Source: Candidatus Krumholzibacteriota bacterium
Lineage (GTDB): Bacteria; Krumholzibacteriota; Krumholzibacteriia; LZORAL124-64-63
Reading direction: 5' to 3'
Assembly: GCA_022711765.1 (NCBI GenBank)
Contig: JAKLEB010000002.1
Span: forward strand, 1,432,620 to 1,496,619
DNA: 64,000 bases
The notes under the pieces are model-generated. The model ran no database searches and was not told the origin of the DNA. It saw only the letters and a list, made by a program, of their open reading frames with translations. The position numbers were made by a program, and so were the translations under genes. The stretch's first letter is position 1; every line of letters starts with the position of its first letter. Positions 35,188 through 51,696 of this stretch are shown in pieces.

Positions 35188-36482
35188 AGCTCGCCGAGAC
35201 GGGCAGCCGCATCCTGTTCTGGCGGGCCCTGCAGAAGGTGGCCAACGCGCTGGTCGTGCTCGCGATCGCTCACGGCCTGGGGCCCGCCGGCAATGGGCGG
35301 TTCAGCCTGACCTTGATGCTGGTGACCGTTCTTGCGGCCGTCCTTGCGGGCGGCGTCGGCCTCGCCTCCGTGCCGCCGCTGCGCCAGGGGACCCTCCCGG
35401 TCCGCCGGATCCTCGCGGCGCAGGTCCTGTGGGTGGGCTGGGTCGTGGCCGCGCTCGTCGGGCTCGGGGTGATCGCTCGCGCGACGGACCTGTGGCCGTG
35501 GCTCCACGGGACGCTCGGCTGGGACCTCCCGATGCTCGCCGCCGCGGCCCTGGCGACGCTGGCGCTCCTGGGCTTCGAGATCGCCAACTACGACCTGCTC
35601 GCGGCCGGGGAGGTCGTGTACGGAACCCGGACCGCGGCGCTGCGCGCGGGCGTGCTCCTGGCGGCGGTGGCGGCGCTCCTCGTCGGGTCGAGGCTCGACC
35701 TTCCGTCGGCGATCTGGGCGCTGACCATCGTGCACGTGCTCGCCACCCTGGTCGTCGTCCGCCGGGTGCGGGGCGTCTGGCCGCGATCGCCGGCGCCCGC
35801 GCCCGAATCGCCCGCCCGGCCGCTGTCGCGCGTCGTCGCGACCATGGTCCGCCTCGGTTGGCTCGGCCAGCTCTCGGCGCTGAGCTACCTCCTGCTGCTG
35901 CGTCTGGACCAGTTGATCCTCGAGTCGTACCTGGACGTGGCGGCGGTCGGGATCTACTCCCTGGCCGCCTGGGCCGCCGAGCTGCTGTGGCTCGTGCCGG
36001 AAGCCCTCAATCCGCTCCTCGTGCACTCCTCCGCCGACGACCAGGACGAACGCCGCGACCAGACCGCGGCGCGCGCAGTCCGGCTCGGACTCGCCGGCAC
36101 GGCCGCGGCGGCCGTGCCCGCGATGCTCCTGGCGGAACCGTTGATTGGCCTCTTGCGCGACGGGGCCTACTTGCCGGCGGTCGAGCCGCTCCGCGTGCTG
36201 CTGCCCGGCATCGTCGCGTTCGCGCCGGGCGTGATCCTGGCCGGCGACTTCATCGGACGCGGGCGCTCCGCCTGGAACACGCAGGCGAGCGTGATCACCA
36301 CCGTCGTCAACGTGGCGCTCTGCCTGATGTGGATCCCCAGGCTGGGCATCCTCGGAGCGGCCTGGGCCTCGACCGCCGCGTACGGCCTGGGTTCCGGGAT
36401 CATGGTCTGGCGGTTCCGCCGGGCGACGGGGCTCCCCTGGGCGACCATTCTCGTGCCCCGCCTCGACGATTTGCGGCGTTAG
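35184..36482 (+). CDS. Wzx-like polysaccharide flippase (MOP superfamily)
   Basis: A 432-residue membrane protein with about 12 helices, beginning in the cytoplasm with a short KLAETGSRILFWRALQKVANA segment typical of PST/Wzx transporters. Internal features such as LRLDQLILESYLDVAAVGIYSLA, WLVPEALNPLL and the late VNVALCLMWIPRLGILGAAWAS repeat-like motif match the family. It would move lipid-linked repeat units to the outer leaflet. No Wzy polymerase is obvious in the window. The GTG start overlaps the upstream stop. It is the last gene of the glycan cluster before an AT-rich gap. Confidence 0.85.
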   Translation: MKLAETGSRILFWRALQKVANALVVLAIAHGLGPAGNGRFSLTLMLVTVLAAVLAGGVGLASVPPLRQGTLPVRRILAAQVLWVGWVVAALVGLGVIARATDLWPWLHGTLGWDLPMLAAAALATLALLGFEIANYDLLAAGEVVYGTRTAALRAGVLLAAVAALLVGSRLDLPSAIWALTIVHVLATLVVVRRVRGVWPRSPAPAPESPARPLSRVVATMVRLGWLGQLSALSYLLLLRLDQLILESYLDVAAVGIYSLAAWAAELLWLVPEALNPLLVHSSADDQDERRDQTAARAVRLGLAGTAAAAVPAMLLAEPLIGLLRDGAYLPAVEPLRVLLPGIVAFAPGVILAGDFIGRGRSAWNTQASVITTVVNVALCLMWIPRLGILGAAWASTAAYGLGSGIMVWRFRRATGLPWATILVPRLDDLRR

Positions 36483-36585: not shown

Positions 36586-36614
36586 TTGACACCATTATCG
36601 CGATGGTCTAACCT
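36586..36614 (+). promoter_or_regulatory. Promoter of the dcw (division and cell wall) cluster
   Basis: TTGACA (36586-36591) is a perfect -35 hexamer, followed by exactly 17 bases and TAACCT (36609-36614). Predicted start near 36621, at the edge of the GGTGGG boxes. This is the strongest promoter match in the window. Confidence 0.8.
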
Positions 36615-36627
36615 TCGGTCCACCACT

Positions 36628-36653
36628 GGTGGGATCTATCGGCATCCGGTGGG
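36628..36653 (+). promoter_or_regulatory. Candidate MraZ-binding boxes
   Basis: GGTGGG occurs at 36628-36633 and again at 36648-36653, exactly 20 bases apart (two helical turns), just downstream of the predicted transcription start. MraZ of other bacteria binds direct repeats of TGGG/GTGGG spaced at 10-base intervals in its own promoter region. The intermediate position (36638) is degenerate. Confidence 0.55.
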
Positions 36654-36696
36654 ATTCTCTGGCGACCATGAAGCGGTGCAGCGGAAGAACGGAACG

Positions 36697-37179
36697 TTGA
36701 ACGAGGAACCGGCAGAGGCCACGGTCGGCACGCCCGAACTGCAGATGTACGGGTCGTACGAGCGCGCCCTCGACGACAAGGGCCGATTCAGTTTCCCGAT
36801 GAGCTTCCGCGCGAAGGAGCCGGGCAAAGAGGAGGAGCCTCTCCGCTTCATGATCGCCGAGGACCACGAGGGCGTCGTCAGCCTGATGACGTGCGCGCAG
36901 TACGAGAAGTCGTTGCAAGCGGTCCAGCAGCTGGGGACCGGCCAGGACGAGTGGGATTTCCGGCGCTGGCTCGCCGCCCACTCGCAGGCGGTCCAGACGG
37001 ATAGCCAGGGTCGGGTGACGATCCCGCAGAAGTACCTCGAGAAGATCGGCGCCAGGAAGAGGCTGTTGATCCTCGGGGCGATCACGCGGATCGAGCTGTG
37101 GGATCCCGACCGCTGGGACCAGAGGCAAGCGGCTGCAGGCAAGCCGGCGGAGAAATACATCCGGGCGTTCAGGACATAG
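36697..37179 (+). CDS. mraZ: Transcriptional regulator MraZ
   Basis: A 160-residue DNA-binding protein with two AbrB/SpoVT-like MraZ repeats: GSYERALDDKGRFSFPMSFR and, later, DSQGRVTIPQKYLEKIG. It binds its own promoter and represses the dcw cluster in species studied. The TTG at 36697 has GGAAG 10 bases upstream. ATG 36745 would give the tighter family N-terminus MYGSYERALDDKGR but has no ribosome site; both are possible. It is the first gene of the cluster and sits right below the candidate boxes, so autoregulation is likely. Confidence 0.88.
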   Translation: MNEEPAEATVGTPELQMYGSYERALDDKGRFSFPMSFRAKEPGKEEEPLRFMIAEDHEGVVSLMTCAQYEKSLQAVQQLGTGQDEWDFRRWLAAHSQAVQTDSQGRVTIPQKYLEKIGARKRLLILGAITRIELWDPDRWDQRQAAAGKPAEKYIRAFRT

Positions 37180-37225: not shown

Positions 37226-37633
37226 ATGCCGAGCGAGGGGATCCGGCAGTCGGGCGTCGTCGCCGGCGCCGCTGACGAGTTTCACATCGTGGTCCAGGGC
37301 CGCACCGTGCGGATCCACCTCGCCGGCATTCTCGACCGCGCCCGCGCCCAGCGACTCGTCCGGGCGGCGGCCGCGGTCCTGGTCGATCGCGACCTCCTCG
37401 TCATTCTCGACGGGTCGCGGCTCGTCCATCTCGACTACCGCTGCGTGCCCGCGCTGGTTCGCTGGAGCAAGGGGCTTCGTTCCTACGGACAGCGCGTGGT
37501 CCTGGCGGGTTGGAACGATTACCTGCGCGCCATCCTGACCATGGAAGATTCGGATGGCGAACTGGAGGGCGAGTCCCGCGGGGCGCCACGGCGGCGCGCC
37601 CGGGGACTCCTGCGGCACGTCCAAGTGCCATGA
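37226..37633 (+). CDS. STAS-domain protein (anti-anti-sigma-factor-like) inside the dcw cluster
   Basis: A 135-residue protein. Residues about 17-110 fit a STAS fold: EFHIVVQGRTVRIHLAGILD, a long helix, then VILDGSRLVHLDYRCVPALVRW and the final GQRVVLAGWNDYLRAIL strand-helix. In SpoIIAA-type proteins a phosphorylatable Ser follows the DSS-type loop; here the position looks like LDYRC, so regulation by phosphorylation is doubtful. A strongly basic, Arg-rich tail follows. GGAAGGGAG precedes the ATG, and the stop overlaps the rsmH start (ATGA). It is not a normal member of this cluster; a role in regulating wall or division genes is possible but unproven. Confidence 0.68.
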   Translation: MPSEGIRQSGVVAGAADEFHIVVQGRTVRIHLAGILDRARAQRLVRAAAAVLVDRDLLVILDGSRLVHLDYRCVPALVRWSKGLRSYGQRVVLAGWNDYLRAILTMEDSDGELEGESRGAPRRRARGLLRHVQVP

Positions 37634-38577
37634 CACACCGCCCGCATGTCCCGGTGCTCAGGGACGAGATCCTGGGCCTGCTCGCGCCAGGACCGGGACG
37701 GCGGTACGTGGACGGTACCTTCGGCTTCGGCGGTCACGCCGAGTCGCTGCTCGAGGCTGGAGCGGACGTCCTCGGTCTGGACCTGGACGAGGAGGCGGTC
37801 GTGGCCTGCAGAAGGATCTCGACCGACCGCCCCCGACTGCACTGCCAGCGGCGCAGCTTCCGCGACCTGGCGGGCGCGCTCACCGCGGTCGGGTGGCCGC
37901 CGGTCGACGGGTTGCTGCTGGACCTGGGCGTGAGCTCGCGCCAGCTCGACGAACCGGCCAAGGGATTCAGCTACCGGGCCGATGGTCCCCTGGACCTGCG
38001 CTTCAACCAGGATGAGGGCCGTCCGGCGCACGCTCTGCTCGCGGAGACGGACGAGACGGAGCTCGCCCGGATCCTGCGCGACTTCGGCGAAGAGCGCGGC
38101 GCGCGGGCGCTGGCGCGAGCCATCCAGGCCGCGGAGCGGACGGAGCCGCTCCGCACGACGGCGCAGCTCGCCGCGGTCGTCCGCGACGCGCTGCCGGACG
38201 GTGCGCCGCTCAGCGCGATCCTCAGCCGGGTCTTCCAGGCCCTGCGCATCGTGGTCAACGACGAGCTGGGGGCGCTCCGGGACGTGCTCGCGCAATCGTT
38301 GACCCAGGTCGCGCCTGGCGGCCGCGTCGCGGTGGTCGCCTACCACTCCCTCGAGGACCGCCTCGTCAAGCAATGGCTGGACCGTGAGCGACGGGACTGC
38401 CTGTGCCCGCCGGAGGTCCTGGACTGCCGGTGCGGGCACCGGGCCCGATTGCGTCCCCTCACCCGTCGACCGGTGACGGCTTCGGCGCTCGAGATCCGCG
38501 GGAATCCGCGCGCCCGCAGCGCTCGGCTGAGGGCAGCCGAGATCTTGCCGGCCGTCCCAGGAAGGAGCGCCTCATGA
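37630..38577 (+). CDS. rsmH: 16S rRNA (cytosine(1402)-N4)-methyltransferase RsmH
   Basis: A 315-residue SAM-dependent methyltransferase of the MraW family, which modifies C1402 of 16S rRNA in the decoding centre. It starts with the family N-terminus HRPHVPVLRDEIL, followed by YVDGTFGFGGHAESLL (SAM-binding motif) and LLDLGVSSRQLDEPAKGFSY. The C-terminal region has AYHSLEDRLVKQW and the LTRRPVTASALEIRGNPRARSA signature. The ATG at 37630 overlaps the STAS stop; the open frame upstream is in the STAS gene's other frame. It overlaps ftsL by ATGA. Confidence 0.95.
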   Translation: MTHRPHVPVLRDEILGLLAPGPGRRYVDGTFGFGGHAESLLEAGADVLGLDLDEEAVVACRRISTDRPRLHCQRRSFRDLAGALTAVGWPPVDGLLLDLGVSSRQLDEPAKGFSYRADGPLDLRFNQDEGRPAHALLAETDETELARILRDFGEERGARALARAIQAAERTEPLRTTAQLAAVVRDALPDGAPLSAILSRVFQALRIVVNDELGALRDVLAQSLTQVAPGGRVAVVAYHSLEDRLVKQWLDRERRDCLCPPEVLDCRCGHRARLRPLTRRPVTASALEIRGNPRARSARLRAAEILPAVPGRSAS

Positions 38578-39011
38578 CCGGATTGCACGCAGCCCACGGC
38601 GCGCCGACGACGCGGGGTATGGCCCGACGCCGCAACGCCGCTCGTTATCGACCGTTCTGGCTGGTCGCGGCCGGGCTCCTCCTGACGGGGCTCTTGGCGG
38701 GAGGCATCCAGCTCGGCATCACGATCACCAAGCTGCGCGTCGAGGTGAAGGAGCTCGCGCGCGATTGCGAGAACGAGGCGGCGCACCTCGCGCTGGTGTC
38801 GGTGCGCTGGAACACCGAGAGCTCCCGGCAGGTCGTGATGCGCCGCGCCCAGGATGAACTGGCTCTGGTGTGTCCCGACGCACCCAGCACGATCCGCCTG
38901 GCCGCCGGCCGGAGTCCGAGCGAGAAGCTGGCGTGGTCGGGCGTCCTGAAGCGGCTCGAACCGCGAGACGACGCGCTCCCCGGCGCCGTCGCGGCGACGG
39001 TGCGCCCGTGA
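38574..39011 (+). CDS. ftsL: Cell division protein FtsL-like
   Basis: A 145-residue bitopic protein with a basic N-terminus (ARRRNAARYRPF), one membrane helix at about 28-50, then a helical stretch (LRVEVKELARDCENEAAHLALV) of heptad-like character, as in FtsL, which forms a coiled coil with FtsB and FtsQ at the septum. Sequence similarity to known FtsL is weak, as usual. Identification rests on topology and position between rsmH and ftsI. GGAAGGAG lies about 6 bases before the ATG. The C-terminal 40 residues are disordered and extend beyond the usual FtsL length. Confidence 0.75.
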   Translation: MTGLHAAHGAPTTRGMARRRNAARYRPFWLVAAGLLLTGLLAGGIQLGITITKLRVEVKELARDCENEAAHLALVSVRWNTESSRQVVMRRAQDELALVCPDAPSTIRLAAGRSPSEKLAWSGVLKRLEPRDDALPGAVAATVRP

Positions 39012-41113
39012 CGGGCCGCGAGGGTCCGGCCTTCCGCCTGTCCCTGGTCAAGTGGGCGTGCCTCGTGTCGGCGTGCGTGCTCGTCGCCCGGCTCGTCCAG
39101 GTCCAGGTCGTCCAGCACGAGCGGCACCGGATCGCCGCGGACAAGTTGTGGCTGGACGCGGAGGTCATCGAGCCGCACCGCGGGAACCTCTTCGACCGCC
39201 AGGGCCGGCCGCTCGCCCTGACGGTCAGCTCTCATCGCGTCAGCGTGATCGGCTCCCAGGTGAACCGCCCCGATTCGGTGAGCGCCGTCCTCGCGGAGGT
39301 CCTCGCGGCGGACCGCGCCGACATGGCGCGGCGCGTCGCCGCCGCGGGCAAGCGGTACGTGACCATCGAACCGCAGGCGTTCCTGACCGAGGCGCAGAAG
39401 CGCCGGCTCAAGCGGTTCGCTGGCGTGGAGATCATCGATCAGCTCGGCCGCGTGTATCCGCTGGACGGCGTCGGGGCGTCGCTGATCGGCTTCTACCGCG
39501 AGGACCCCGACCGGACCCGGCGCTGCACGGGACTCGAGCTGGGGCTCGATTCGCTGCTGGTCGGCGAGCCGGGGCGGTCGATGAAGGTGTGCTCGGCCCG
39601 GCTCGGCCAGGACTACGGCGACGTGGTGGTCGAACCGGTCCGCCACGGTGCCGACGTGGTCCTGACGATCGACGCCGACCTGCAGGAGATCTGCGAGAGC
39701 CGGCTCCGCGACGCGGTCGCCGTCTGCGATGCCGCCGCCGGCTCGGTGCTCGTTCTCGATCCGCGCAACGGCGATATCCTGGCCGCCGCGAGCTATCCCC
39801 TCGTGGAGACGCGCGAGCGACCCGTGCGCGACGTGGCCTGCTGGATCAACCGCAACCTGACCACGGCCTTCGAGCCGGGCTCCGTGTTCAAGATCTTCAC
39901 GGCCGCGACGCTGCTCGCGCGGGGCGTCGTGGACACCGCGACGGTCTTCGACTGCTCGGACAACCGGTTCGGCGGCTACACTATCGACGAGGCGGCCGGC
40001 CATCACTACGGGCGCCTGGATTTCATGGAGGCGTTCAGCCAGTCGAGCAACGTCTGGTTCGCGCGCGCCGCGACCAACCTGTCGCGGGAGGAGCAGTACC
40101 GCGCTCTGGTCGACTTCGGGTTCGGAAAGCTGACCGGGCTGCCGTACCCGGCCGAGCGGGCCGGCATCCTGGCCGTGCCGACGGCGTGGTCCGCGCGATC
40201 GCAGCCGACGATCGCGATCGGCCAGGAGGTCGCGGTCAGTCCGCTGCAGCTGGGCCTCGCGGTCGCCGCCGTCGCCAACGGCGGTACGCTCTTCGCGCCG
40301 AGGATCTACTGCGAGGTGCGCTCCGGACCCGGGGCGGCCGCCCAGCACGTCGAGCCGGAGCCCCTGCGATCGGTGTTGCCGCGCGGACTCGATGCGGTCC
40401 TGCGGGAAGCGATGCGGCGGGTCGTGCGCGAGGGGACCGGCGCCGCGGTCGAACGCGACTGGATCGCGATCGGGGGCAAGACGGGCACCGGTCAGAAGAG
40501 CGTGCCGGGCCGCGGCTACCGCGACAACCTGCACGTGGCGACGTTCGTCGGCCTCCTGCCGGTCGCCGCGCCGCGCCTGGTGATCGTGGCGGTTCTCGAC
40601 GAGCCGAGCTGGTCGAAGCACTACGCCGCCCAGAGCGCGGCTCCGCTCTTCGGCGCGGTCGTCGACGACATCCGGCGCACGACCGACTGGCTCACGGATG
40701 TCGACCTGACCTGCGAGCGCCGCGTGATCGGGCCGGATCGGCAGGCGCTCCCCGTGCCGGACGTGATGTTCCTCACCAGCGCGGGCGCCGTGCGCCGGCT
40801 GGAAAGCGCCGGGTTCACGGTGCGCGGGGCCGAGCCGGAGGGCAGGGTGATCATGCAGGTCCCGGCCGCCGGCAGCCTGCTCGCGCCCGGCCAGACAGTC
40901 GCCCTCACGGTGCGCGCCCGCGCGGGCGACACGCCGCAGGCCTGTCCGGACGTGCGCGGTCTGAGTAACCGCGAGATCCAGGCGCTGGCCGCGAGGCTCG
41001 GCGTGCCGGTGGAGGTGGCCGGCGTCGGCTACGTCGCCGACCAGGAGCCGGCTCCGGGCGTGGACCTCACGGCGGACGGACTGCGCGTCAGGATGACCAA
41101 CACATGGCAATGA
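39008..41113 (+). CDS. ftsI: Septal peptidoglycan transpeptidase FtsI (PBP3) with PASTA domains
   Basis: A 701-residue class B penicillin-binding protein that crosslinks septal peptidoglycan with FtsW. One N-terminal helix (about 13-33) is followed by a pedestal domain (HRGNLFDRQGRPLAL) and the transpeptidase with SVFK (active Ser292), SSN (346-348) and KTG (491-493). Two PASTA repeats end the protein (about 580-700); E. coli FtsI lacks them, while Gram-positive and FCB-like relatives often have them. The GTG start overlaps the ftsL stop, and the end overlaps murE by 10 bases. Confidence 0.94.
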   Translation: MTGREGPAFRLSLVKWACLVSACVLVARLVQVQVVQHERHRIAADKLWLDAEVIEPHRGNLFDRQGRPLALTVSSHRVSVIGSQVNRPDSVSAVLAEVLAADRADMARRVAAAGKRYVTIEPQAFLTEAQKRRLKRFAGVEIIDQLGRVYPLDGVGASLIGFYREDPDRTRRCTGLELGLDSLLVGEPGRSMKVCSARLGQDYGDVVVEPVRHGADVVLTIDADLQEICESRLRDAVAVCDAAAGSVLVLDPRNGDILAAASYPLVETRERPVRDVACWINRNLTTAFEPGSVFKIFTAATLLARGVVDTATVFDCSDNRFGGYTIDEAAGHHYGRLDFMEAFSQSSNVWFARAATNLSREEQYRALVDFGFGKLTGLPYPAERAGILAVPTAWSARSQPTIAIGQEVAVSPLQLGLAVAAVANGGTLFAPRIYCEVRSGPGAAAQHVEPEPLRSVLPRGLDAVLREAMRRVVREGTGAAVERDWIAIGGKTGTGQKSVPGRGYRDNLHVATFVGLLPVAAPRLVIVAVLDEPSWSKHYAAQSAAPLFGAVVDDIRRTTDWLTDVDLTCERRVIGPDRQALPVPDVMFLTSAGAVRRLESAGFTVRGAEPEGRVIMQVPAAGSLLAPGQTVALTVRARAGDTPQACPDVRGLSNREIQALAARLGVPVEVAGVGYVADQEPAPGVDLTADGLRVRMTNTWQ

Positions 41114-42645
41114 CGCTCGCCACGCTCTGCGCGCCGTGGCCCGACCTGGAGATCCTCGGCGACGGTGGCGTGCCGATCGCGGCGGTCGTCGAGGACTCGC
41201 GGCGCGCCGGACCGGGCACGCTCTTCGTGGCGGTCGCGGGTCACGGCGCCGACGGACACGCGTTCGTGGCGCAAGCAGTCGCGGCGGGCGCCGCGGCCGT
41301 GGCGGTGGATCGCTCGCGGCTGGACGATTCACGGGCCGCCCTTCTCGAACCTCGTCCCGCGGCCTGGGTCGCAGCCTCCTGCACCCGTGGGCTTCCGGCC
41401 CGTCTGGCGCGGGAATGCGAGGGGCGGCCCGACACTCTCCTGACGATGGTCGGCGTGACCGGCACCAACGGCAAGACGACGACCTCGTTCCTGATCCAGG
41501 AATTGCTCGGGCGGCTCGCCGGTCCCTGCGGCCTGCTGGGCACCATCCGCTACGACGACGGCCGCGAGCGCTTCCGGGCGCCGCTCACGACGCCGGGCGG
41601 CCCGGAGCTCTTCCGCTGGCTGGGCCGCATGGTGCGCGCGGGGTGCCGGTCGGCGTCGATGGAGATCTCGTCCCACGCGCTGGACCAGGACCGTCCCGGC
41701 GACCTCGCGCTGGACGTCGCCGTGCTCACGAACCTCGGTCGCGATCATCTCGACTACCACGGCGATCTCGCGCGCTACCTCGCGGCGAAGACGCGGATCC
41801 TCGAGCTTCTCCAGGCCATGCCCCGGCGAGGGAAACCGGCCGGCGCGGCCGTGATCAACGCCGGCGACCCGGCGCTCGGAAGCCTCGAGACCGGAGCGCT
41901 CGACGCCGTCCGCTACGCGACGGCGCCGGACCGCGCGACGGGCCGGGTGGACCTCGCGGTGCGGAGCGCCCGTCTGGCGCTCGACGCGACCCGCCTCGAG
42001 CTGGACTGGCGCGGGCGCCGGCTCGCCGTCGCGAGCCCGCTCGTCGGTCGGTTCAACGTCGAGAACCTGACGGCGGCGCTCGGCGCCGGACTCGCGCTCG
42101 GTCTGGACCCCGACGACTGCGCGGGCGCGCTCGCCGGGGTCAGCCAGGTCCCGGGCCGTCTCGAGCGGTTCCTGCTCCCCGCCGGCGGTCTGGCCGTCGT
42201 CGACTACGCGCACACGCACGACGCCCTCGCGGCCGTGCTCCTCGCTTGCCGCGAGCTCAGCCACCGTCGTCTCGGCGTCGTCTTCGGCTGCGGCGGCGAC
42301 CGCGATCGCGGCAAGCGGCCGCTCATGGGCCGCGTGGCCGCCGAGCTCGCGGACCTGGTCTGGATCACGTCGGACAACCCTCGCAGCGAGGACCCGGCGA
42401 CGATCTGCGCCGAGATCGCTGCCGGCTTCGATTCCGTCTCCGCGCCGCGGGCCGCGGGCCGAACGGTCATCGTCGATCGTACGGCGGCGATCTCGGCGGC
42501 GCTCGCCGCCGCCCGCGAGGGCGACGTGATCGTGGTGGCGGGCAAGGGCCATGAAGACTACCAGTTGGTGCAGGGGCGGACTCTGCACCTGGACGATCGC
42601 GAGATCGTCGGCGCGTGGATCGCCCGGGAGGGTGGTCATGCGTGA
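41104..42645 (+). CDS. murE: UDP-MurNAc-L-Ala-D-Glu:meso-diaminopimelate ligase
   Basis: A 513-residue Mur ligase that adds the third residue to the peptidoglycan stem peptide. The ATP loop is GTNGKTT (120-126), with SSHALDQDRPGD and NLGRDHLDYHG following. The DNPR motif at 424-427 predicts meso-diaminopimelate as the amino acid rather than lysine, which fits a Gram-negative wall. The C-terminal VAGKGHEDYQ is typical. It overlaps ftsI by 10 bases and murF by 8 bases. Confidence 0.96.
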   Translation: MAMTLATLCAPWPDLEILGDGGVPIAAVVEDSRRAGPGTLFVAVAGHGADGHAFVAQAVAAGAAAVAVDRSRLDDSRAALLEPRPAAWVAASCTRGLPARLARECEGRPDTLLTMVGVTGTNGKTTTSFLIQELLGRLAGPCGLLGTIRYDDGRERFRAPLTTPGGPELFRWLGRMVRAGCRSASMEISSHALDQDRPGDLALDVAVLTNLGRDHLDYHGDLARYLAAKTRILELLQAMPRRGKPAGAAVINAGDPALGSLETGALDAVRYATAPDRATGRVDLAVRSARLALDATRLELDWRGRRLAVASPLVGRFNVENLTAALGAGLALGLDPDDCAGALAGVSQVPGRLERFLLPAGGLAVVDYAHTHDALAAVLLACRELSHRRLGVVFGCGGDRDRGKRPLMGRVAAELADLVWITSDNPRSEDPATICAEIAAGFDSVSAPRAAGRTVIVDRTAAISAALAAAREGDVIVVAGKGHEDYQLVQGRTLHLDDREIVGAWIAREGGHA

Positions 42646-44083
42646 CCGCTACGATCTCGCCGCCGCGGCGGCGGACCTCGCCGGGGTCGGCCTTTTGCGC
42701 GGCGCCTGGATCGCCGCGGACGGCGCCTGGCGACGGATCGATCCGGACGGCCTCGACGGCGGTTTCCACGACGCCGTGCTCGATTCGCGAGACGTGCGCC
42801 CCGGCGTGCTGTTCGTCGGCCTGCGCGGAGCCCAGCAGGACGGACGTCGTTTCGCGGGCGAGGCGCTGCGCGGAGGCGCGCACGCGCTCGTCGGCGGGGT
42901 CGCGGGCGGCGCGGACGAGCCCGAGGGGCCCGCGCCGGCGTCGGGCACGGTCCTCGTCGCGAGCGATCCGGTGGCGGCGCTCTCGGTGCTCGCCGCGCGC
43001 TGGCGGTCCCGGATGACTCCGCTCGTCATCGGGGTCACGGGCAGCAACGGCAAGACGACGACGAAGGATCTCCTCGCGGCCATGCTGGCCGGCGCGGGAC
43101 CGGTGCACGCCACGAAGGCCAACCACAACAACGTGCAGGGCGTGCCCCTGACCCTGCTCGGCCTGGCATCGCGCCACCGGTTCGCGGTCATCGAGATGGG
43201 GGCGTCGGCGGTCGGCCACATCGCGGCGCGTGCGGCCCTCGCGCGCCCGGCGATCGGGGTCATCACCAACGCCGCTGGCGCCCACCTCGAGGAGTTCGGC
43301 GGCCTCGAGCAGGTCATCGCCGGCAAGGGGGAGCTGCTCGCCGCCCTGCCGCCCGCCGGTACGGCCGTGCTGAACGCGGACAGCCCGGGATTCGCCGAGT
43401 GGCGGCGCCAGGCGCCGTGCCCGGTCGTGAGCTGGGGGAAACGCGCCGGCGATCACCGCTGGGACTGGGCCCCGGATCCCGCGACCGGCAGGGGCGTGCT
43501 CCGGCTCGACGGCGAACAGTGGCCGGTTCCGCTGCCGGGCCGGCACAACGGCGCGAACCTCTGCGCCGCGCTGCTCGCCGCGCGCGCCGCCGGCGCCAGC
43601 GACGCGCAGATCCGCCGCGGCCTCGCGACGTTCCGGGCGTCGCCGCACCGGGCCGACCTGCGGCGCCTGGGCGGCCGCTGGGTGCTGGACGACAGCTATA
43701 ACGCGAACCCCGAGAGCATGGTCAGCGCCGCGCGCATGCTGGGCGAGCTGCCGGGAGGTCCGGCCTGGGCCGTCGTCGGCGGCATGGCCGAGCTGGGTCC
43801 CCGGTCGCCCGCTCTCCACCGCGAGTGCGGCCGCGAGCTGGCCGCGGCGGGCATCGCCCGTCTCGTGGCGGTCGGCGAGGCGGCGCAGCTCCTGGCCGAG
43901 GGATTCCGGGCGGGCGGCGGCCGGGCCGAGGAGTGCCCCGACCACGCCGCCGCCGCCAGGCTGCTCGACCGGGAGACGCGCCCCGGCGACCGCATCCTGA
44001 TCAAGGGCTCCCGCTCGACGGCGATGGAGCGCGTGCTCGCGGAGCTCCGCGAACACGCGGGCTGGACGGAGGAACGGCCGTGA
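42638..44083 (+). CDS. murF: UDP-MurNAc-tripeptide:D-Ala-D-Ala ligase
   Basis: A 481-residue Mur ligase that adds D-Ala-D-Ala to the UDP-MurNAc-tripeptide. The P-loop is GSNGKTTTKD (from 135), with AKNHNNVQG-like NHNNVQGVPLTLL and AVIEMGASAVGHI following. The C-terminal domain has LDDSYNANPESM and GMAELG, which distinguish MurF. The ATG at 42638 has GGGAGG upstream. mraY normally follows here, but the stop overlaps the murD start directly. Confidence 0.95.
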   Translation: MRDRYDLAAAAADLAGVGLLRGAWIAADGAWRRIDPDGLDGGFHDAVLDSRDVRPGVLFVGLRGAQQDGRRFAGEALRGGAHALVGGVAGGADEPEGPAPASGTVLVASDPVAALSVLAARWRSRMTPLVIGVTGSNGKTTTKDLLAAMLAGAGPVHATKANHNNVQGVPLTLLGLASRHRFAVIEMGASAVGHIAARAALARPAIGVITNAAGAHLEEFGGLEQVIAGKGELLAALPPAGTAVLNADSPGFAEWRRQAPCPVVSWGKRAGDHRWDWAPDPATGRGVLRLDGEQWPVPLPGRHNGANLCAALLAARAAGASDAQIRRGLATFRASPHRADLRRLGGRWVLDDSYNANPESMVSAARMLGELPGGPAWAVVGGMAELGPRSPALHRECGRELAAAGIARLVAVGEAAQLLAEGFRAGGGRAEECPDHAAAARLLDRETRPGDRILIKGSRSTAMERVLAELREHAGWTEERP

Positions 44084-45462
44084 CCGCACCCCGCTTGACC
44101 GGACGCACCGTCCTGGTCGTCGGCCTGGGCCGCAGCGGCTGCGCCGCGGGCGCGCTCCTGCGGCGCCACGGCGCCCGCGTGCTCGGCGCCGACGACGCCG
44201 GCCGGGACGCGATCGAGCGCCGCTGGCGGCGCGACGAGATCGACCCGGCGGTGTCCGGCGCCGCGTTCGACGAGCTTCTGACCGGCCCGACCTGGCACGC
44301 TGTCGCTCCGGCCGATCTCCACGCCGTCGTGCTGAGCCCGGGCGTGCCGCCCGAGCATCCCGGTCTGGCCGCGCTGCGCCAGGCCGGCGTTCCTGTCCAC
44401 GGCGAGCTGGAGTGGGCGTCCCGGTTCTTCGGCGGCCGGACCGTCGCCGTCACCGGCACCAACGGCAAGTCGACCACCACGGCGTGGATCGCGCACGTCC
44501 TGCAGACCGCCGGCCTCACGAGCCCGGCGCTCGGCAACCTCGGCAACCCGCTGGCGAACGAGGCGGATCGGCTGCCGTCCGACGCAGTTCCCGTGATCGA
44601 GTGCAGCAGTTTCCAGCTCGAGACGATCGAGTCCTACCAGCCCACGGTCGGCGTACTCTTGAACCTCGCGCCCGACCACCTCGATCGGTATCCGGACCTC
44701 GCCTCCTATTATGCGGCCAAGGCGCGGCTGGCCGCCCAGGTCGCCCCCGACGGCGCGTTCGTCACCTGGACCGAGTGCCCGGAGGGCCTCGCCTGGCGCC
44801 ACGGCGGCCGGCGCCTTCTCTTCGGCGATCCGGTCGCCGGCGCGGATGCCTGGCTCGCCGAGGGCCGGGTCCGCGTGCGCCGGCGCGGCGAGGTGCGCGA
44901 CCTCCTGGCGGTCGCCGACCTCTTTCTGCAGTCCCCGCCGAACCTGCTGAACGCGGCGGCGACGGCGGCGGCCGTGCTGTCGCTCGTCGACGATCTCGAC
45001 GCGGTCGCCGAGGGTCTGCGCACGTTCCGCGGACTCGCGCACCGGCACCAGCTGGTGGGGCGGCTCGGCGGCGTGCGGTTCGTGAACGATACCAAGGCCA
45101 CCAACGTCCACGCCGTCTGCGCCGGCTTGCGCGGCTATCCAACGCCGGTCGTGCTCATCGCGGGAGGGAGCGGCAAGGGCGAAGACTACGCCCCGCTGCG
45201 CGAGGTGATGGCGCCCGTGCGGCACGTGGTCACGATCGGCCAGGAGGGGCCGGCGATCGCGGCCGCCCTCGCCGGCCGCGTGCCGACGTCGCCCGCGGTC
45301 GACCTGCCCGCGGCCGTGCGGCTCGCCGCCAGCCTGGCGGCGCCCGACGCGACGGTCCTCTTGAGCCCAGCCTGCGCCAGCTTCGACATGTTCAACAACT
45401 ACCGGGAGCGCGGGGAGGCCTTCGCGGCCGCCGCTCGCGCCCTCGGCGCCCGGGAGGATTGA
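44080..45462 (+). CDS. murD: UDP-MurNAc-L-Ala:D-Glu ligase
   Basis: A 460-residue Mur ligase adding D-glutamate to UDP-MurNAc-L-Ala. It starts with the N-terminal UDP-binding Rossmann motif VLVVGLGRSGCAAG, then GTNGKSTTT (126-134), ECSSFQLE and LAPDHLDRY. The C-terminal domain has NDTKATN and LSPACASFDMFNNYRERG, which are diagnostic. The GTG start overlaps the murF stop, so translation is probably coupled. ftsW begins 1 base after the stop. Confidence 0.95.
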   Translation: MTAPRLTGRTVLVVGLGRSGCAAGALLRRHGARVLGADDAGRDAIERRWRRDEIDPAVSGAAFDELLTGPTWHAVAPADLHAVVLSPGVPPEHPGLAALRQAGVPVHGELEWASRFFGGRTVAVTGTNGKSTTTAWIAHVLQTAGLTSPALGNLGNPLANEADRLPSDAVPVIECSSFQLETIESYQPTVGVLLNLAPDHLDRYPDLASYYAAKARLAAQVAPDGAFVTWTECPEGLAWRHGGRRLLFGDPVAGADAWLAEGRVRVRRRGEVRDLLAVADLFLQSPPNLLNAAATAAAVLSLVDDLDAVAEGLRTFRGLAHRHQLVGRLGGVRFVNDTKATNVHAVCAGLRGYPTPVVLIAGGSGKGEDYAPLREVMAPVRHVVTIGQEGPAIAAALAGRVPTSPAVDLPAAVRLAASLAAPDATVLLSPACASFDMFNNYRERGEAFAAAARALGARED

Positions 45463-45463
45463 G

Positions 45464-46657
45464 ATGCGCCGACTGACCATCCCGCGCCGCCTGCGCGGCG
45501 TCGACCACGACAGCTGGTTCATCGGCGCGGTCGTGACGCTCTGCCTGCTCGGTACGATCGCCGTCTACGGCGCGGGGAGCTTCCGGTCGCAGTCGCTCGG
45601 GCAGTACCATTACTTGCTGGCGCACCTGCAGCGCCTCGCGATCGGTCTGGTCGGGGCGATCGTCCTGGCGACCGTCGACCATACCCGGTTCCGGCGCGAC
45701 TGGCTCGTCTGGTCCGCGCTCGGGATCGGGCTGGGCCTCACCGCGCTGCCCGTCGTCCTGCGCGGGCTGGGAATCGACCGCTGGATCGAGGTCGGCGGTC
45801 TGGGCCAGTTCCAGCCGATCGAGCTCGCCAAGCTCGCGCTCGTGCTCTTCCTCGCGTACCGGCTGTCGGTCTCCCCGCTGGACCGGCCGCTCGGCGCCCG
45901 CCAGCTCGCGATCACGCTGGGGGCCGGCCCCCTCCTGCTCATGCTGCTGCTCGCGCTGCAGCCGAACTTCGGCAACGTCGTCGTGATGGCGCTGGTGACG
46001 ATCCTGATGCTGCACCTTGCCGGTCTGGACCGGCGCTGGCTGCTCGCCGTCGCGCCTGTCGGCGCGGCGGCGGCCCTGGTCGGCTACGTCTGCGTGAGCA
46101 AACTCCAGGTCCGCATCGACCAATGGCTGCTCGGCTGGCGCGGGGTGGGCGTGGCCGGCGAGCTGCCGTTCAGCGACCAGGTCTTCCGCGCGTTGCTGGG
46201 CATGGGCGCGGGCGGCTGGCACGGTCTGGGCCCGGGCAACAGCCACAACAAGTTCTCGTTCCTGCCGGAGAACCACACGGACTTCGCGATCTCGTACCTC
46301 GGCGAGGAGCTGGGGTTGATCGGGACCACGACCGTGGTCGTGGCGCTCCTGGTCCTCGCCTGGCGCTCCCTGGTCATCGCCGGGCGCGCGCCGACGCGGT
46401 TCAGCCAGCTGCTCGCCGCCGGCCTCGGCGGCATGATCTTCATCTACGGCGTCGCGAACATCGCCATGGTCACCGGCGTCATCCCGGTCATGGGCGTACC
46501 GCTGCCGTTCGTCAGCTACGGCGGCTCGGCCCTGGTGACCAACCTCGCGGCGGTCGGGATCATCCTGAACGTCGACCGGCAGAGCCGCGGCCGCCGGCAG
46601 CGCACGCCGGGGATCCGGCGTCTGAGCCTGTTTGACCGCGCGACCGAGAGGCGGTAG
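45464..46657 (+). CDS. ftsW: Septal peptidoglycan glycosyltransferase FtsW (SEDS family)
   Basis: A 397-residue SEDS protein with about 10 membrane helices that polymerises lipid II at the septum together with FtsI. Motifs are DRWIEVGGLGQFQPIELAKLA, QPNFGNVVVM, LPENHTDFAISYLGEELG and the final PLPFVSYGGSALVTNLAAVG. The length is typical. In most bacteria murG follows; here murC starts 32 bases later, so murG is missing from its usual place. An AGATTGAGATG context links it tightly to murD. Confidence 0.93.
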   Translation: MRRLTIPRRLRGVDHDSWFIGAVVTLCLLGTIAVYGAGSFRSQSLGQYHYLLAHLQRLAIGLVGAIVLATVDHTRFRRDWLVWSALGIGLGLTALPVVLRGLGIDRWIEVGGLGQFQPIELAKLALVLFLAYRLSVSPLDRPLGARQLAITLGAGPLLLMLLLALQPNFGNVVVMALVTILMLHLAGLDRRWLLAVAPVGAAAALVGYVCVSKLQVRIDQWLLGWRGVGVAGELPFSDQVFRALLGMGAGGWHGLGPGNSHNKFSFLPENHTDFAISYLGEELGLIGTTTVVVALLVLAWRSLVIAGRAPTRFSQLLAAGLGGMIFIYGVANIAMVTGVIPVMGVPLPFVSYGGSALVTNLAAVGIILNVDRQSRGRRQRTPGIRRLSLFDRATERR

Positions 46658-46689
46658 AATATCCGGACACCGGTGCGCAGGGAGGCGCC

Positions 46690-48075
46690 ATGTTCCGGAA
46701 CACTCGCCACATCCACCTCGTCGCGATCGGCGGGGTGGGTATGAGCGGGATCGCGGAGGTCCTGCTCAATCTCGGCTTCTCCGTCAGCGGCAGCGATCTG
46801 CGCCGGTCGGCGTCCACCGACCGGCTCGCGTCGCTCGGGGCGCGGATCCACATCGGTCATGCTGCGGAGCACGTGGCGGAAGCCGACGTGGTCGTCCGCT
46901 CGTCGGCCGTCACCGAGGCGAACTGCGAGGTGAGCGAAGCCCGCCGCCGGCGGATCCCGGTGATCCGCCGCGCGGAGATGCTGGCCGAGCTCATGCGGCT
47001 CAAGCAGGGCGTGGCCGTCGCCGGGTCCCACGGCAAGACCACGACCACCAGCCTGACGGCCGCGGTCCTCGCCGCCGGCGGACTCGACCCGACCGTCATC
47101 GTGGGCGGCCAGGTCCTCGCGCTCGGCACGAACGCCGTGCTCGGCGGAGGCGATTACCTCGTGGCCGAGGCCGACGAGAGCGACGGGAGCTTCCTGCACC
47201 TGACACCGACGATCGCCGTCGTCACGAACATCGATCACGAGCACGTCGACCATTATCCGGACCTGAACGACCTGCGGGCCGCGTTCGTCGAGTTCGTCGG
47301 CCGGGTCCCGTTCTACGGCACGGCCGTGCTCTGCGCCGACGACCCCGAGGTCCGGGGGATCATCCCGCGGGTCGACCGCCGGATCGTCACCTACGGCTTC
47401 TCCCGCGAGGCCGACGTCCGCGTCGACCCGGAGACGGTCACGAGCGGTCCGGACGGCCAGTCGGGCGAGGTCTGGACAGCGGACGGGAAGGTCGGCCGCC
47501 TGCGCCTGCCGCAGCTCGGCCGGCACAACCTCCGCAACGCGCTCGCGGCGATCGCCGTGGGCAGGGATCTCGGCGTCTCCTTCCCGACGGCCGCGGCGGC
47601 TCTGGCCGCGTTCCGCGGCGTCGGCCGGCGCTGCGAGAGCCATGGCGAACCCGGCGGCGTCCTGGTCCTCGACGACTACGGGCACCACCCGACCGAGCTC
47701 TCCGCCACGATGGAGGTCGCGCGAGCGTACGACCGGCGCGTCGCCGTCCTGTTCCAGCCGCACCGGTACTCGCGCACCCGTCACTTCGCGCGCGAGTTCG
47801 CCGACGCCTTGGCCGGCGCCGATCTCGTCGGGCTGCTGCCGGTCTACGCCGCCGGCGAGGAAGACCCCGGCCAGGCCGGCAGCGACCTGATCGCCGCCGA
47901 ACTGGCGGGACGGTACCGGCGGCCGGTCCAGCTGCTCGTCGACCACCAGGGGGTGTTCGACTGGCTCGACGCCGAGGTCGTGGCCGGCGATCTGCTGTTG
48001 ACGTCCGGCGCCGGCGACATCGGGCGCCTCGTGCCTCAGCTGTGTGAACACCTGGCCAGGAGGCGGCCCGCGTGA
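46690..48075 (+). CDS. murC: UDP-N-acetylmuramate:L-alanine ligase
   Basis: A 461-residue Mur ligase that attaches L-alanine to UDP-MurNAc, the first stem-peptide residue. Motifs include IGGVGMSGIAEVL, AGSHGKTTTTS (111-121), AEADESDGSFL and NIDHEHVDHYPD. The C-terminal domain has LDDYGHHPTEL and LFQPHRYSRT. AGGGAGG is just upstream of the ATG. The stop overlaps the ftsQ start (GTGA). Confidence 0.96.
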   Translation: MFRNTRHIHLVAIGGVGMSGIAEVLLNLGFSVSGSDLRRSASTDRLASLGARIHIGHAAEHVAEADVVVRSSAVTEANCEVSEARRRRIPVIRRAEMLAELMRLKQGVAVAGSHGKTTTTSLTAAVLAAGGLDPTVIVGGQVLALGTNAVLGGGDYLVAEADESDGSFLHLTPTIAVVTNIDHEHVDHYPDLNDLRAAFVEFVGRVPFYGTAVLCADDPEVRGIIPRVDRRIVTYGFSREADVRVDPETVTSGPDGQSGEVWTADGKVGRLRLPQLGRHNLRNALAAIAVGRDLGVSFPTAAAALAAFRGVGRRCESHGEPGGVLVLDDYGHHPTELSATMEVARAYDRRVAVLFQPHRYSRTRHFAREFADALAGADLVGLLPVYAAGEEDPGQAGSDLIAAELAGRYRRPVQLLVDHQGVFDWLDAEVVAGDLLLTSGAGDIGRLVPQLCEHLARRRPA

Positions 48076-48923
48076 AGGTCGCGCAGCTCGTGATCGGGGA
48101 ATTTCGTGGCGAGCGTGGCCGCCGGCTGGCGGCCCCCCGGCGCGAGCGGCCGTCCCGGCGGCGGCTCCTCCTGCAGGCCGCCGCGGTCGTCGTGACCGTG
48201 GGTCTGCTGGCCGCGCTCGGGCACTGGTTGCTCACGTCGCCCACGTTCGCGATCGGCCGCATCGAGTCGGGACGATACCGCTACAGCGACCGCGCGTCGG
48301 TCGATGCGGCGCTCCGTCGCTGTCTCGGCCGCAACATCTGGACGTTCTCGCGGTACGACCTGGCGGCCGCGTGCAGCGACCTGCCGTGGGTGAGCGCCGT
48401 GCACGTGCAGCGCCGCCTCCCCGACACCGTGACCGTCGAGCTGACCGAGTGGCAGCCGCTGCTGGGGGTGGTCGACACGACAGCCGCCGGCGGCGAGAAG
48501 GTCCTCGTCGCGAGCGGACTGGTCCTCGACATCCCCGCCCACCTGAGCACGCCGGGATTGCCGCTTCTGGTCGGCTGCCGCCTCGCGTCGCTCGGGTCCG
48601 GCCGCTGGCGGATGGTCGACCACGATCCCGGGGCTGTGCTGGCGCTGGTCGCCGCGCTCGAGGCGACCGCGTTCGAGAGCGAGTGCCCGGTGGATTTCGT
48701 GCGCAACACGCCGCTCGGATTCGAGGTCACCCTGCAGGGCAAGGCCGGGAGCCTGCTGATCGGCACGGACGATTTCGCCGGCCGTCTCGCGCGCTTCCTG
48801 ATCGCGAAGGACGATATCACGACCGGGGCCGCGGTCGATCTGCGTTTCGAGGACCGCGTCACCTTCGAGCCGCTCGCGCCCGACAGCGCGGAGACCACGG
48901 TCGAGAAAGGACCGCCATCATGA
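48072..48923 (+). CDS. ftsQ: Cell division protein FtsQ
   Basis: A 283-residue bitopic protein with a basic cytoplasmic tail, one helix (about 31-53), a POTRA domain (IGRIESGRYRYSDRASVDAAL, then WVSAVHVQRRLPDTVTVELTEW) and a beta domain. FtsQ bridges early and late divisome proteins and binds FtsB/FtsL. The GTG start overlaps the murC stop, and the ATGA end overlaps ftsA. The family is poorly conserved, so position and POTRA motif carry the call. Confidence 0.88.
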   Translation: MKVAQLVIGEFRGERGRRLAAPRRERPSRRRLLLQAAAVVVTVGLLAALGHWLLTSPTFAIGRIESGRYRYSDRASVDAALRRCLGRNIWTFSRYDLAAACSDLPWVSAVHVQRRLPDTVTVELTEWQPLLGVVDTTAAGGEKVLVASGLVLDIPAHLSTPGLPLLVGCRLASLGSGRWRMVDHDPGAVLALVAALEATAFESECPVDFVRNTPLGFEVTLQGKAGSLLIGTDDFAGRLARFLIAKDDITTGAAVDLRFEDRVTFEPLAPDSAETTVEKGPPS

Positions 48924-50152
48924 GCGAGGGCAACCTCGTCGTCGCCTGCGATTTCGGGACCACGACCTTCCGCGCCCTCGTCGCCGAGGTCGGTTCCGCG
49001 CGGCCGGCCCGCATCCTCGCCGGCGCGGTCGCGAGCGCGGAGGGATTCCAGGACGGAGACTTCGTCGACGTCAAGGCGGGCAGCCTCGCGATCGCGCGCC
49101 TCATCCGCGAGGTCCAGGAAGCCGCCAATGTCGACATCAGCGGCTTCAGCTTCAACATCACGGGCTCGCACCTGCGGTCGGTCATGGCCACCGGCCAGAT
49201 CCCGATCGGCCAGCGCGGGCGCGACATCACCGGGCGCGACGTGGACGAGGTCATGACCATGGCCCGCAGCCTGACGATCCCGTTCAACCATCGCATCCTG
49301 ACCGTCAACCCGGTCGAGTTCTCGGTCGACCGCGTCGGCGGCATCCTCGATCCCCGCGGCCGGGTCGGGAGCCGCCTCGAGGTCAAGGCCCATCTGATCA
49401 CCGGCTCGTGTTCGGTCATCCGCAACATCGAGAACGCGATCGACAAGGCGGGCTTCGAGCCGGCCGGGCACGCGGTGGACATCCTCGCCGCGGCGACCGC
49501 GTTGCTCACCCCGGCGGAACGGGAACGCGGCGTGATCCTGATCGACGTCGGCGGCGAGGTCACGCACTGGGCGGCGCTCGCGGGCGGCCGGCTGCTCGGC
49601 ATCGGCGCGACGCCGTGGGGCGGCCAGCACTTGACCGGCGATCTCGCCAGCGGCCTGCGCATCCCGGTCGAGGCCGCCGCGGTCGTCAAGGAAGACCGCG
49701 GCGTCGTGCTGCGCAGCCTCGTCGAGGAGGTCGACGTCAACGTCCTCTTCGAACAGGAGGATCCGGCGGAGACGCCGGGGTTGATCGCGGCCGTCCTCGA
49801 GCCGCGCCTCGAGGAGATCTTCTCGCTCGTCAAGGACACGCTCGGTCCCGAGCTGCCGCTCTCGCGCTTCGCGTCCGGGATCGTGCTCACGGGCGGCGGC
49901 AGCCGGTGCCGCGGCTCGCGCGAGCTGTGCGAGGAGGTCTTCGGCATGCCGGCGCGGAGCCGCTACCTGCCGGAAGATCTCGAGGGCGTGGGCAACCTCC
50001 CCGGGGGACAGTGGGCGACCGCGCTCGGGCTCGCGCTGTGGAGCGGCGGCAGCGAGCGGGCTCAGGCCACGCAACCGCCGGCCGCCGATGCGGCGGCGGA
50101 CAGCTGGCGCGGGAAGCTCCGCCGGATGCTGTCCCGGGGTGCGCACGCCTGA
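48920..50152 (+). CDS. ftsA: Cell division protein FtsA
   Basis: A 410-residue actin-like ATPase that tethers FtsZ to the membrane. Motifs include CDFGTTTFRALVAEV (phosphate 1), the SHS2-type insert with ISGFSFNITGSHLRSV, IDVGGEVTHWAAL (phosphate 2) and IVLTGGGSRCRG (adenosine). The C-terminal SWRGKLRRMLSRG forms the amphipathic membrane-anchoring helix. The ATG overlaps the ftsQ stop with GAAAGGA upstream. ftsZ follows after a gap of about 120 bases holding its own promoter. Confidence 0.93.
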   Translation: MSEGNLVVACDFGTTTFRALVAEVGSARPARILAGAVASAEGFQDGDFVDVKAGSLAIARLIREVQEAANVDISGFSFNITGSHLRSVMATGQIPIGQRGRDITGRDVDEVMTMARSLTIPFNHRILTVNPVEFSVDRVGGILDPRGRVGSRLEVKAHLITGSCSVIRNIENAIDKAGFEPAGHAVDILAAATALLTPAERERGVILIDVGGEVTHWAALAGGRLLGIGATPWGGQHLTGDLASGLRIPVEAAAVVKEDRGVVLRSLVEEVDVNVLFEQEDPAETPGLIAAVLEPRLEEIFSLVKDTLGPELPLSRFASGIVLTGGGSRCRGSRELCEEVFGMPARSRYLPEDLEGVGNLPGGQWATALGLALWSGGSERAQATQPPAADAAADSWRGKLRRMLSRGAHA

Positions 50153-50190
50153 CGGATCCGGCCTCCTGTCGCCGGTTCTCAAGATTGTCC

Positions 50191-50219
50191 TTGGCCGCTG
50201 CGCGGACTTGTGTTAATTA
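50191..50219 (+). promoter_or_regulatory. Internal promoter before ftsZ
   Basis: TTGGCC (50191-50196), 17 bases, then TAATTA (50214-50219), preceded by TGTGT. It lies in the only sizeable gap of the late division cluster and would allow ftsZ to be expressed separately from ftsQA, as in other bacteria. Confidence 0.6.
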
Positions 50220-50274
50220 GCGGTCAGGACGAGGAGCGTCCCAGCGAGCCCATCTCATGGAGGAGGCGGGTGTC

Positions 50275-51696
50275 ATGAACATCCATTTCGCCCCCGAGAA
50301 TCGTCAGCGGCGTGCGCGGATCAAGGTCGTCGGCGTGGGCGGCGCCGGTGGCAACGCCGTCAATCGCATGATCGAAGCCGGCCTCACCGAGGTCGATTTT
50401 TTTGCCGTCAACACCGACGCCCAGGCGCTCGACAAGTCGCGCGCCCATCAGACGCTGGTGATCGGCGGCGAGTTGACCCGCGGCCTCGGCGCGGGCGGCG
50501 ATCCCGAGACGGGACGCCTGGCCGCCGAGGAAGACCGCAGCCTGCTCGAGGCCATGCTGGAAGATTCCGACATGGTCTTCGTCACCGCCGGCATGGGCGG
50601 CGGCACCGGGACGGGCGCGGCGCCGGTGATCGCGGAGATCGCCCGCAAGGGCGGCGCGCTCACCGTGGCCGTGGTGACGCGTCCGTTCCTGTTCGAGGGC
50701 TTCCGGCGCATGGAGCAGGCGGAGGCGGGTCTGGCCGCCCTCCGCGAGCGAGTCGACGCGCTCCTGGTGATCCCGAACGAGCGGCTGATGGAGATCGACC
50801 TCGCGGACGCCGGGATGACCGCGGTCTTCCGCGTCGCCGACAATGTGCTCTACGAAGCCACCCGCGGCATCAGCGACATCATCGCCCAGCACGCCGTCGT
50901 GAACCTCGATTTCGCCGATGTCCGGACGGTCATGAGGAACAGCGGCGCGGCCATCATGGGGACGGGCCGGGCGTCGGGCCCGAGCCGCGCCGTGACCGCG
51001 GCCGAGCAGGCGATCCGCTCGCCCTTGCTCGAGAACGTCGAGATCCTGGGCTCCCGCGCGGTGCTGGTCTACCTGACGGCGGCCGCGGTCGATCGCGAGG
51101 ACCTGCGCGGCGCCATGGGCCATATCCAGGAGGCGGCCGGCTCCGAGGCGCACATCTTCTTCGGGTTCGCGAACGACGAATCGCTCGGCGAGACGCTGCA
51201 GGTCACCGTCATCGCGACGGGATTCCCGACCGCCGCGGCGGCGGCTCGACCGGAGCCGCGGCGTCCGATCGCGGTGGCGGAGCCGCCGGAGGACGCCGCT
51301 TGCGAGGTCGCGGTCGAACCAGCGCCTCCGCCGGCAGCGGCAGCCGAGCCGGAGCCGGAGCCGGAACCGGAGCCGGAGCCGGAACCCCGGTTCGCCTGGA
51401 TGCCGGACGCCGGGCCGGCGCCGGACGCGATCGCGGAGCCTTCCGTCGTCCTCGCGGCGCTCGCGGCCGCCGCCGGCAGCGCGGAACCTCACGAGTACCC
51501 GGGCTCCGAGGAGGCGTCCCCGACGGCCTCGGAGACCAGCCGGCGCTTCCTCGATCCCCTCGGGTCGGTGCCGTTGCGGGAGGCGGCTCAACCGGCCACG
51601 GCCGGCGGGAGCCAGCCGGCGGCGCAGCGCTTCCGCAGCACCGTGCTCGGCGACGACAAGCTGCGCCCGGCCTGGGAGAGGAAGTACGTGGACTGA
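50275..51696 (+). CDS. ftsZ: Cell division protein FtsZ
   Basis: A 473-residue tubulin-like GTPase that forms the Z ring. GTP-binding motifs are VGVGGAGGNAVN and GGGTGTG (108-114), and the T7 synergy loop is NLDFADV (210-216). The globular part ends near 320. A disordered linker follows with seven Glu-Pro repeats, and the end LRPAWERKYVD matches the PA-(F/W)-x-R-K peptide that binds FtsA. Just before it, STVLGDDK is repeated in the next gene's product. The ATG at 50275 is chosen because GGAGGAGG is 8 bases upstream; ATG 50257 would overlap that site. Confidence 0.96.
   Translation: MNIHFAPENRQRRARIKVVGVGGAGGNAVNRMIEAGLTEVDFFAVNTDAQALDKSRAHQTLVIGGELTRGLGAGGDPETGRLAAEEDRSLLEAMLEDSDMVFVTAGMGGGTGTGAAPVIAEIARKGGALTVAVVTRPFLFEGFRRMEQAEAGLAALRERVDALLVIPNERLMEIDLADAGMTAVFRVADNVLYEATRGISDIIAQHAVVNLDFADVRTVMRNSGAAIMGTGRASGPSRAVTAAEQAIRSPLLENVEILGSRAVLVYLTAAAVDREDLRGAMGHIQEAAGSEAHIFFGFANDESLGETLQVTVIATGFPTAAAAARPEPRRPIAVAEPPEDAACEVAVEPAPPPAAAAEPEPEPEPEPEPEPRFAWMPDAGPAPDAIAEPSVVLAALAAAAGSAEPHEYPGSEEASPTASETSRRFLDPLGSVPLREAAQPATAGGSQPAAQRFRSTVLGDDKLRPAWERKYVD
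51346..51387 (+). repeat. Short tandem repeat encoding seven Glu-Pro pairs in the FtsZ linker
   Basis: Seven hexanucleotides of the form GA(G/A)CC(G/C) in direct tandem encode (Glu-Pro)x7. Such repeats can change in number by slippage without breaking the reading frame, and would alter linker length only. Confidence 0.85.

Follow-up and report, generated by a model that had tools for sequence, protein, structure and literature searches.

The dcw cluster and its STAS gene

The window, i.e., the whole stretch of 64,000 nucleotides that was analysed, contains a dcw cluster in which a gene for a STAS-domain protein lies between mraZ and rsmH (Table 1). The earlier note had described this arrangement, and profile searches bear it out, with PF13466 (STAS_2) above its cut-off in the gene product (37.5 bits versus 29.2, E 3e-9), PF02381 matching the product of mraZ upstream and TIGR00006 that of rsmH downstream. 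RsmH scores 265 bits against the TIGR00006 cut-off of 154 (E 7e-79) and reaches E 4e-84 with PF01795. The start of mraZ is uncertain: the TTG at 36697 is favoured by comparison with a locus of the same genus (L004), and the ATG at 36745 is possible.

Table 1. Features of the dcw cluster in the window
Feature	Position	Strand	Details
Sigma-70-like promoter of the cluster	36586..36614	+	TTGACA 36586-36591, 17-nt spacer, TAACCT 36609-36614; predicted from sequence
Putative MraZ operator	36628..36655	+	two GGTGGGAT boxes, 20 bp apart; predicted
mraZ	36697..37179	+	PF02381 E 1.9e-15; NCBIfam MraZ models E 2e-18
STAS-domain gene of the dcw cluster	37226..37633	+	135 aa; key residues H68, D70, Y71, R72, Y99
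ATGA overlap, STAS stop/rsmH start (ATG 37630)	37630..37633	+	-4 nt in 29/29 measurable family junctions
rsmH (mraW), 16S rRNA m4C1402 methyltransferase	37630..38577	+	TIGR00006, PF01795
Remaining dcw genes: ftsI/PBP, murE, murF, murD, ftsW, Mur ligase (murC position), ftsA, ftsZ	38870..51696	+	

A TTGACA followed by a TAT-type second box occurs at the same spot as the predicted promoter in three loci of the same genus (L003-L005); the TTGACA-N17-TAACCT site of the window is absent from the output of a strict-consensus promoter scan. In L003 and L004, TGGG-type repeats at 10-bp spacing lie directly after the TTGACA promoter and upstream of mraZ. Judged by sequence, the TGGG-type repeats of the window, L003 and L004, spaced by 10 or 20 bp, are likely to be MraZ operators; PMC8475190 describes MraZ boxes ahead of dcw clusters.

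The cluster has some further peculiarities. In the window (44080-48075), murF is directly followed by murD and ftsW by a Mur ligase, so that mraY and murG do not occupy their customary positions. Upstream of mraZ (32684-36482) are encoded a PseB-like nucleotide-sugar dehydratase, a FemAB/GNAT-type protein and a putative membrane protein of 431 aa, the last with no Pfam match at E 1e-10. In most genera of the window's family (L006, L007, L008, L011, L014-L017, L020 and others), mraZ and the STAS gene are about 100-234 nt apart, which is long for the interior of a dcw cluster.

The STAS open reading frame runs from an ATG to a TGA stop at 37631-37633, which overlaps the start of rsmH by ATGA as previously noted, and translational coupling of the two genes through this overlap is expected. 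With PF01740 the window protein scores 22.4 bits, slightly below the cut-off of 22.6, and its orthologues reach E 2e-18 with the Pfam STAS profile. Its AlphaFold model has a core mean pLDDT of about 94, the top PDB fold matches of the model are STAS proteins, SpoIIAA first, and in profile alignments the best PDB profile match is of the SpoIIAA/RsbV type (E 7e-17). The predicted structure is hence that of a STAS domain and the gene is present in close relatives, the reverse of both outcomes that the earlier note had named as speaking against it.

The window copy stops before the final strand and helix that would complete the STAS domain; the Pfam STAS_2 model does not demand these, and the structure model is of low confidence past residue ~110. 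In the alignment, copies from four other families of the class (f2-f5) and from other phyla run on through the domain end where the window copy stops. The Arg-rich C-terminal tail that had been pointed out earlier is real in the window copy, where it is predicted to be disordered, but it is not conserved among relatives, which rules it out as a functional element. At the N-terminus, the STAS proteins of the window's family have in common a peptide MP[RG]Ex[TA]RQ, with a variable linker behind it, that resembles a short binding motif; other families do not have it.

Conservation within the family and the class

The STAS protein is found in about 30 genomes of the window's family (f1), and the mraZ-STAS-rsmH order is kept in every testable one; each of the 29 junctions that could be measured has an overlap with rsmH of exactly 4 nt. 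Five genomes (G010, G026, G032, G033 and G004) were left out because rsmH or the STAS gene is cut by a contig end or the assembly has no rsmH. True absence in some close relatives was rejected, since the apparent gaps coincide with contig ends or missing rsmH; the comparison of dcw clusters in relatives that the earlier note had proposed thus finds the gene in all testable genomes of the family. Twelve positions are invariant in the family (L32, G34, L52, L66, H68, D70, R72, W80, L84, L93, W96 and I103), while residue 71 is Tyr or Phe. The dN/dS values of near pairs in this family are mostly 0.15-0.4; two g6 pairs, with very few changes, lie near 0.9.

Four more families of the same class (f2-f5) have divergent STAS orthologues in the same slot, which were first located by their coordinates beside rsmH and then read directly; several of these proteins exceed Pfam cut-offs. 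Two other families of the class, f6 (L071, L075, L079, L081, L084) and f7 (L064, L067, L108), have no STAS gene in the cluster, and mraZ and rsmH are adjacent with 40-82 nt between them. These absences represent natural losses of the STAS gene at mraZ-rsmH. In f8, the locus is interrupted by a contig end. Tandem genes for canonical STAS proteins with an ISSAG motif do occur in f6 genomes (L141, G047 C1:1928600-1932000; L142, G051 C25).

Occurrence in other phyla

A profile built from f1-f5 was searched over 289 genomes, and rsmH was then placed in the best ones. The mraZ-STAS-rsmH order was confirmed in 19 further families outside the window's phylum, the STAS gene lying between mraZ and rsmH in f14, f32, f35, f71, f76, f99, f137, f139, f147, f168, f180, f189 and f222, among others. 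In total, the three genes are found in that order on one strand in 101 distinct genomes with 24 family codes (103 locus rows, two genomes being represented twice); with dN/dS mostly well below 1, this speaks against a chance arrangement. The dcw STAS gene is present in all 10 available genomes of the phylum of G208 and in all three of the phylum of G103, as direct reading of the loci confirmed. In the phylum of G106, which has large genomes of 9-13 Mb, 105 of 195 genomes have a close homologue (E <= 1e-22), and the slot was verified in a sample of these 105 loci: the STAS open reading frame directly follows mraZ in all of them and rsmH is next wherever recognised. Judged by its genome sizes, this phylum may be Myxococcota.

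Carriers therefore span at least four phyla, those of the window, G208, G103 and G106. The notion of a gene inserted in a single lineage is ruled out by STAS genes in the same slot across families and several phyla: the dcw STAS gene is a widespread second gene of the dcw cluster in many lineages.

Loss of the phosphorylation site

Alignment with SpoIIAA, which had been suggested along with the comparison of clusters, pairs Tyr71, Arg72 and Cys73 of the window protein with Ser58 (the phosphorylated residue), Ser59 and Gly60, respectively, which confirms the earlier reading of a Tyr/Arg/Cys context in place of the serine. Across the 103 rows, the phosphosite column contains 81 Tyr, 15 Phe and 7 other residues; Ser or Thr is found at this position in none of the 101 verified genomes. 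By comparison, all 21 control STAS proteins encoded outside dcw clusters are phosphorylatable there (19 Ser and 2 Thr). The residue that follows is Arg in 78 of the 103 rows, a His stands three residues before the aromatic (H68) in 94, and a Tyr opens the next helix (Y99) in 95. These His, Tyr/Phe, Arg and Tyr residues are kept even though mean identity across phyla is about 28%. Phosphorylation of Tyr71 itself is unlikely because Phe alternates freely with it.

The dcw STAS family has thus given up the phosphosite that defines SpoIIAA and RsbV and kept other residues of the partner-binding face, where we presume the conserved residues to lie from the known SpoIIAA and MlaB complexes.

When 50 dcw and 21 non-dcw STAS domains are placed on one tree, a single branch separates the two sets (support 99/88). 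After removal of the motif columns, the same split is still the best tree, with support of 86/53 and recovery in 87% of bootstrap trees. The controls were the best non-dcw matches and the alignments are short (108-119 columns). Common descent of the dcw STAS proteins is thereby supported, and a single origin is likely on these sequences rather than proven.

Kinases in carrier genomes

No kinase or phosphatase gene is present at the locus, where the neighbours of the STAS gene are mraZ and rsmH. HATPase_c_2 matches were obtained in all 26 genomes tested and exceed the curated cut-off in all except G208, a 100% complete carrier in nine contigs, whose best match has E 1.9e-5. Since G208 carries the dcw STAS gene with no such kinase above the cut-off, the dcw STAS protein does not generally go with an RsbW-type kinase; together with the missing phosphosite, this indicates that it is probably not a phospho-switched anti-sigma antagonist. 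The earlier note had proposed to look for a cognate kinase elsewhere in the genome. The window's own genome has, away from the dcw cluster, a HATPase gene (C1:861636) beside a canonical-looking STAS gene with an NSTG motif (C1:862105), a pair separate from the dcw STAS gene. The best HATPase_c_2 match of this genome is on another contig than the dcw cluster, with its own STAS gene alongside.

Relation to known STAS proteins

The single-domain STAS proteins SpoIIAA and RsbV (TIGR00377, TIGR02886) share the fold of the window protein (1tid, 1th8, 6m36). Unlike them, the dcw proteins have Tyr or Phe for the phosphorylated Ser in nearly all cases, usually followed by Arg, and are encoded in the dcw cluster with no kinase neighbour. 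Most are also below the TIGR00377 cut-off of 53.45 bits: the window protein scores 13 bits and two of ten distant orthologues pass, which is the sole match above a cut-off among the NCBIfam models matched, a broad one, and no equivalog for the dcw STAS protein was among them. RsbS of the stressosome, also a single STAS domain and a fold match (6jhk), has retained a phosphorylatable Ser, and its gene neighbours rsbR and rsbT, whereas the dcw proteins have neither a conserved Ser/Thr nor an rsbT neighbour. MlaB, of the Mla lipid ABC transporter, is a STAS protein that uses the same face to bind an ATPase and is not an anti-sigma antagonist. Its fold match (6xgz) and its profile match (NF033618, 15.8 bits versus a cut-off of 90) are both weak, and the locus has no transporter genes.

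In the well-known dcw clusters mraZ and rsmH are adjacent, in contrast to the arrangement described here. Full-text searches of the literature combining dcw, mraZ or mraW with STAS returned nothing relevant to this gene, and PMC8871954, on the evolution of the dcw cluster, does not mention STAS. Hence, the STAS domain is known but the dcw STAS family itself is undescribed in the literature searched. This is of interest because dcw is among the most studied and most conserved bacterial clusters, and at least four phyla have an unnamed protein in its second slot. The family would be a clear case of STAS proteins leaving phosphorylation altogether and, should Myxococcota be among the carrier phyla, could be tested in the genetically tractable Myxococcus.

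Possible functions

A link of the gene to division and to wall synthesis, as the earlier note had proposed, is strongly supported by its position, its conserved overlap with rsmH and its spread over several phyla. The accompanying idea of a partner-switching signal fares badly. A classical antagonist, whose phosphorylation would control a sigma factor and link it to division, would agree with the STAS fold and with the canonical-looking STAS/HATPase pair elsewhere in the window's genome. Yet that pair is a separate one, the phosphosite is lost (0/101 versus 21/21 in controls), kinase and phosphatase genes are missing from the locus, G208 has no kinase above the cut-off, the window protein and most relatives are under the TIGR00377 cut-off, and the exchange of Tyr for Phe speaks against a conserved phosphotyrosine; this explanation is therefore very improbable. 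The main rival is an antagonist locked in its active state, which, being unphosphorylatable, would bind a GHKL kinase or another ATPase, in the manner of SpoIIAA, RsbS or MlaB, and titrate it in proportion to dcw expression. Conservation of the binding face, altered as it is, the nearest folds (SpoIIAA bound to SpoIIAB, RsbV, RsbS and MlaB) and the above-cut-off HATPase_c_2 proteins in 25 of the 26 tested genomes are all in its favour. In the SpoIIAA-SpoIIAB complex, the gamma-phosphate of the ATP held by SpoIIAB approaches SpoIIAA at the phosphosite position; a bulky aromatic-Arg pair would disturb this interface and, with the missing kinase gene at the locus and the G208 genome, makes such an antagonist rather unlikely, if less so than the other rivals.

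Nucleotides or lipids are ligands of STAS domains in other proteins, and the conserved residues His, Tyr, Arg and Tyr could surround a small ligand, in which case the protein would act as a ligand or membrane sensor reporting to the cluster; the motif, however, lies on a known protein-protein face, so that a sensor is improbable. It is also hard to see the gene as a passenger, an ancestral insertion kept since its removal would disturb translation of rsmH. The tight overlap and the tolerance of its loss in f6 and f7 would fit, but a fold would not be preserved in a mere spacer, most dN/dS values are well under 1 and the His, Tyr/Phe, Arg and Tyr residues are conserved over several phyla at about 28% mean identity; this, too, has very little probability.

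It seems about an even call that the dcw STAS protein is instead a phosphorylation-independent docking protein, with RsmH or MraZ as its likeliest partners. The kinase-facing surface of SpoIIAA/RsbV would be kept but rebuilt, with Tyr or Phe, usually followed by Arg, for the phospho-Ser, a His at the position of H68 and, where the next helix starts, a Tyr at that of Y99, and the protein would bind one partner with no on/off phosphate. Lying behind the presumed MraZ-controlled promoter, the STAS gene would be co-expressed with mraZ and rsmH, and its product would tie MraZ repression to the output of RsmH or of division proteins.

The choice of partners is a guess from gene order; that promoter and, in the window's family, the overlap of the STAS stop with the rsmH start make RsmH and MraZ the likeliest. 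They are also attractive because MraZ and MraW (RsmH) are antagonistic in E. coli, according to work cited in PMC8475190, where no mechanism is given. Bolder, and tentative at best, is the proposal that an old STAS family, having given up phospho-switching, became a standing MraZ-RsmH adaptor and is the missing link in this antagonism. A protein lodged between the two genes offers a direct handle on why they stay together and why their products antagonise each other in E. coli. In a mirror-tree comparison, the distances of the STAS protein correlate with those of RsmH (0.89) and MraZ (0.81), with no partner signal above shared descent. Finally, the adjacency of mraZ and rsmH in f6 and f7 indicates that the STAS protein is dispensable to the dcw cluster as such.
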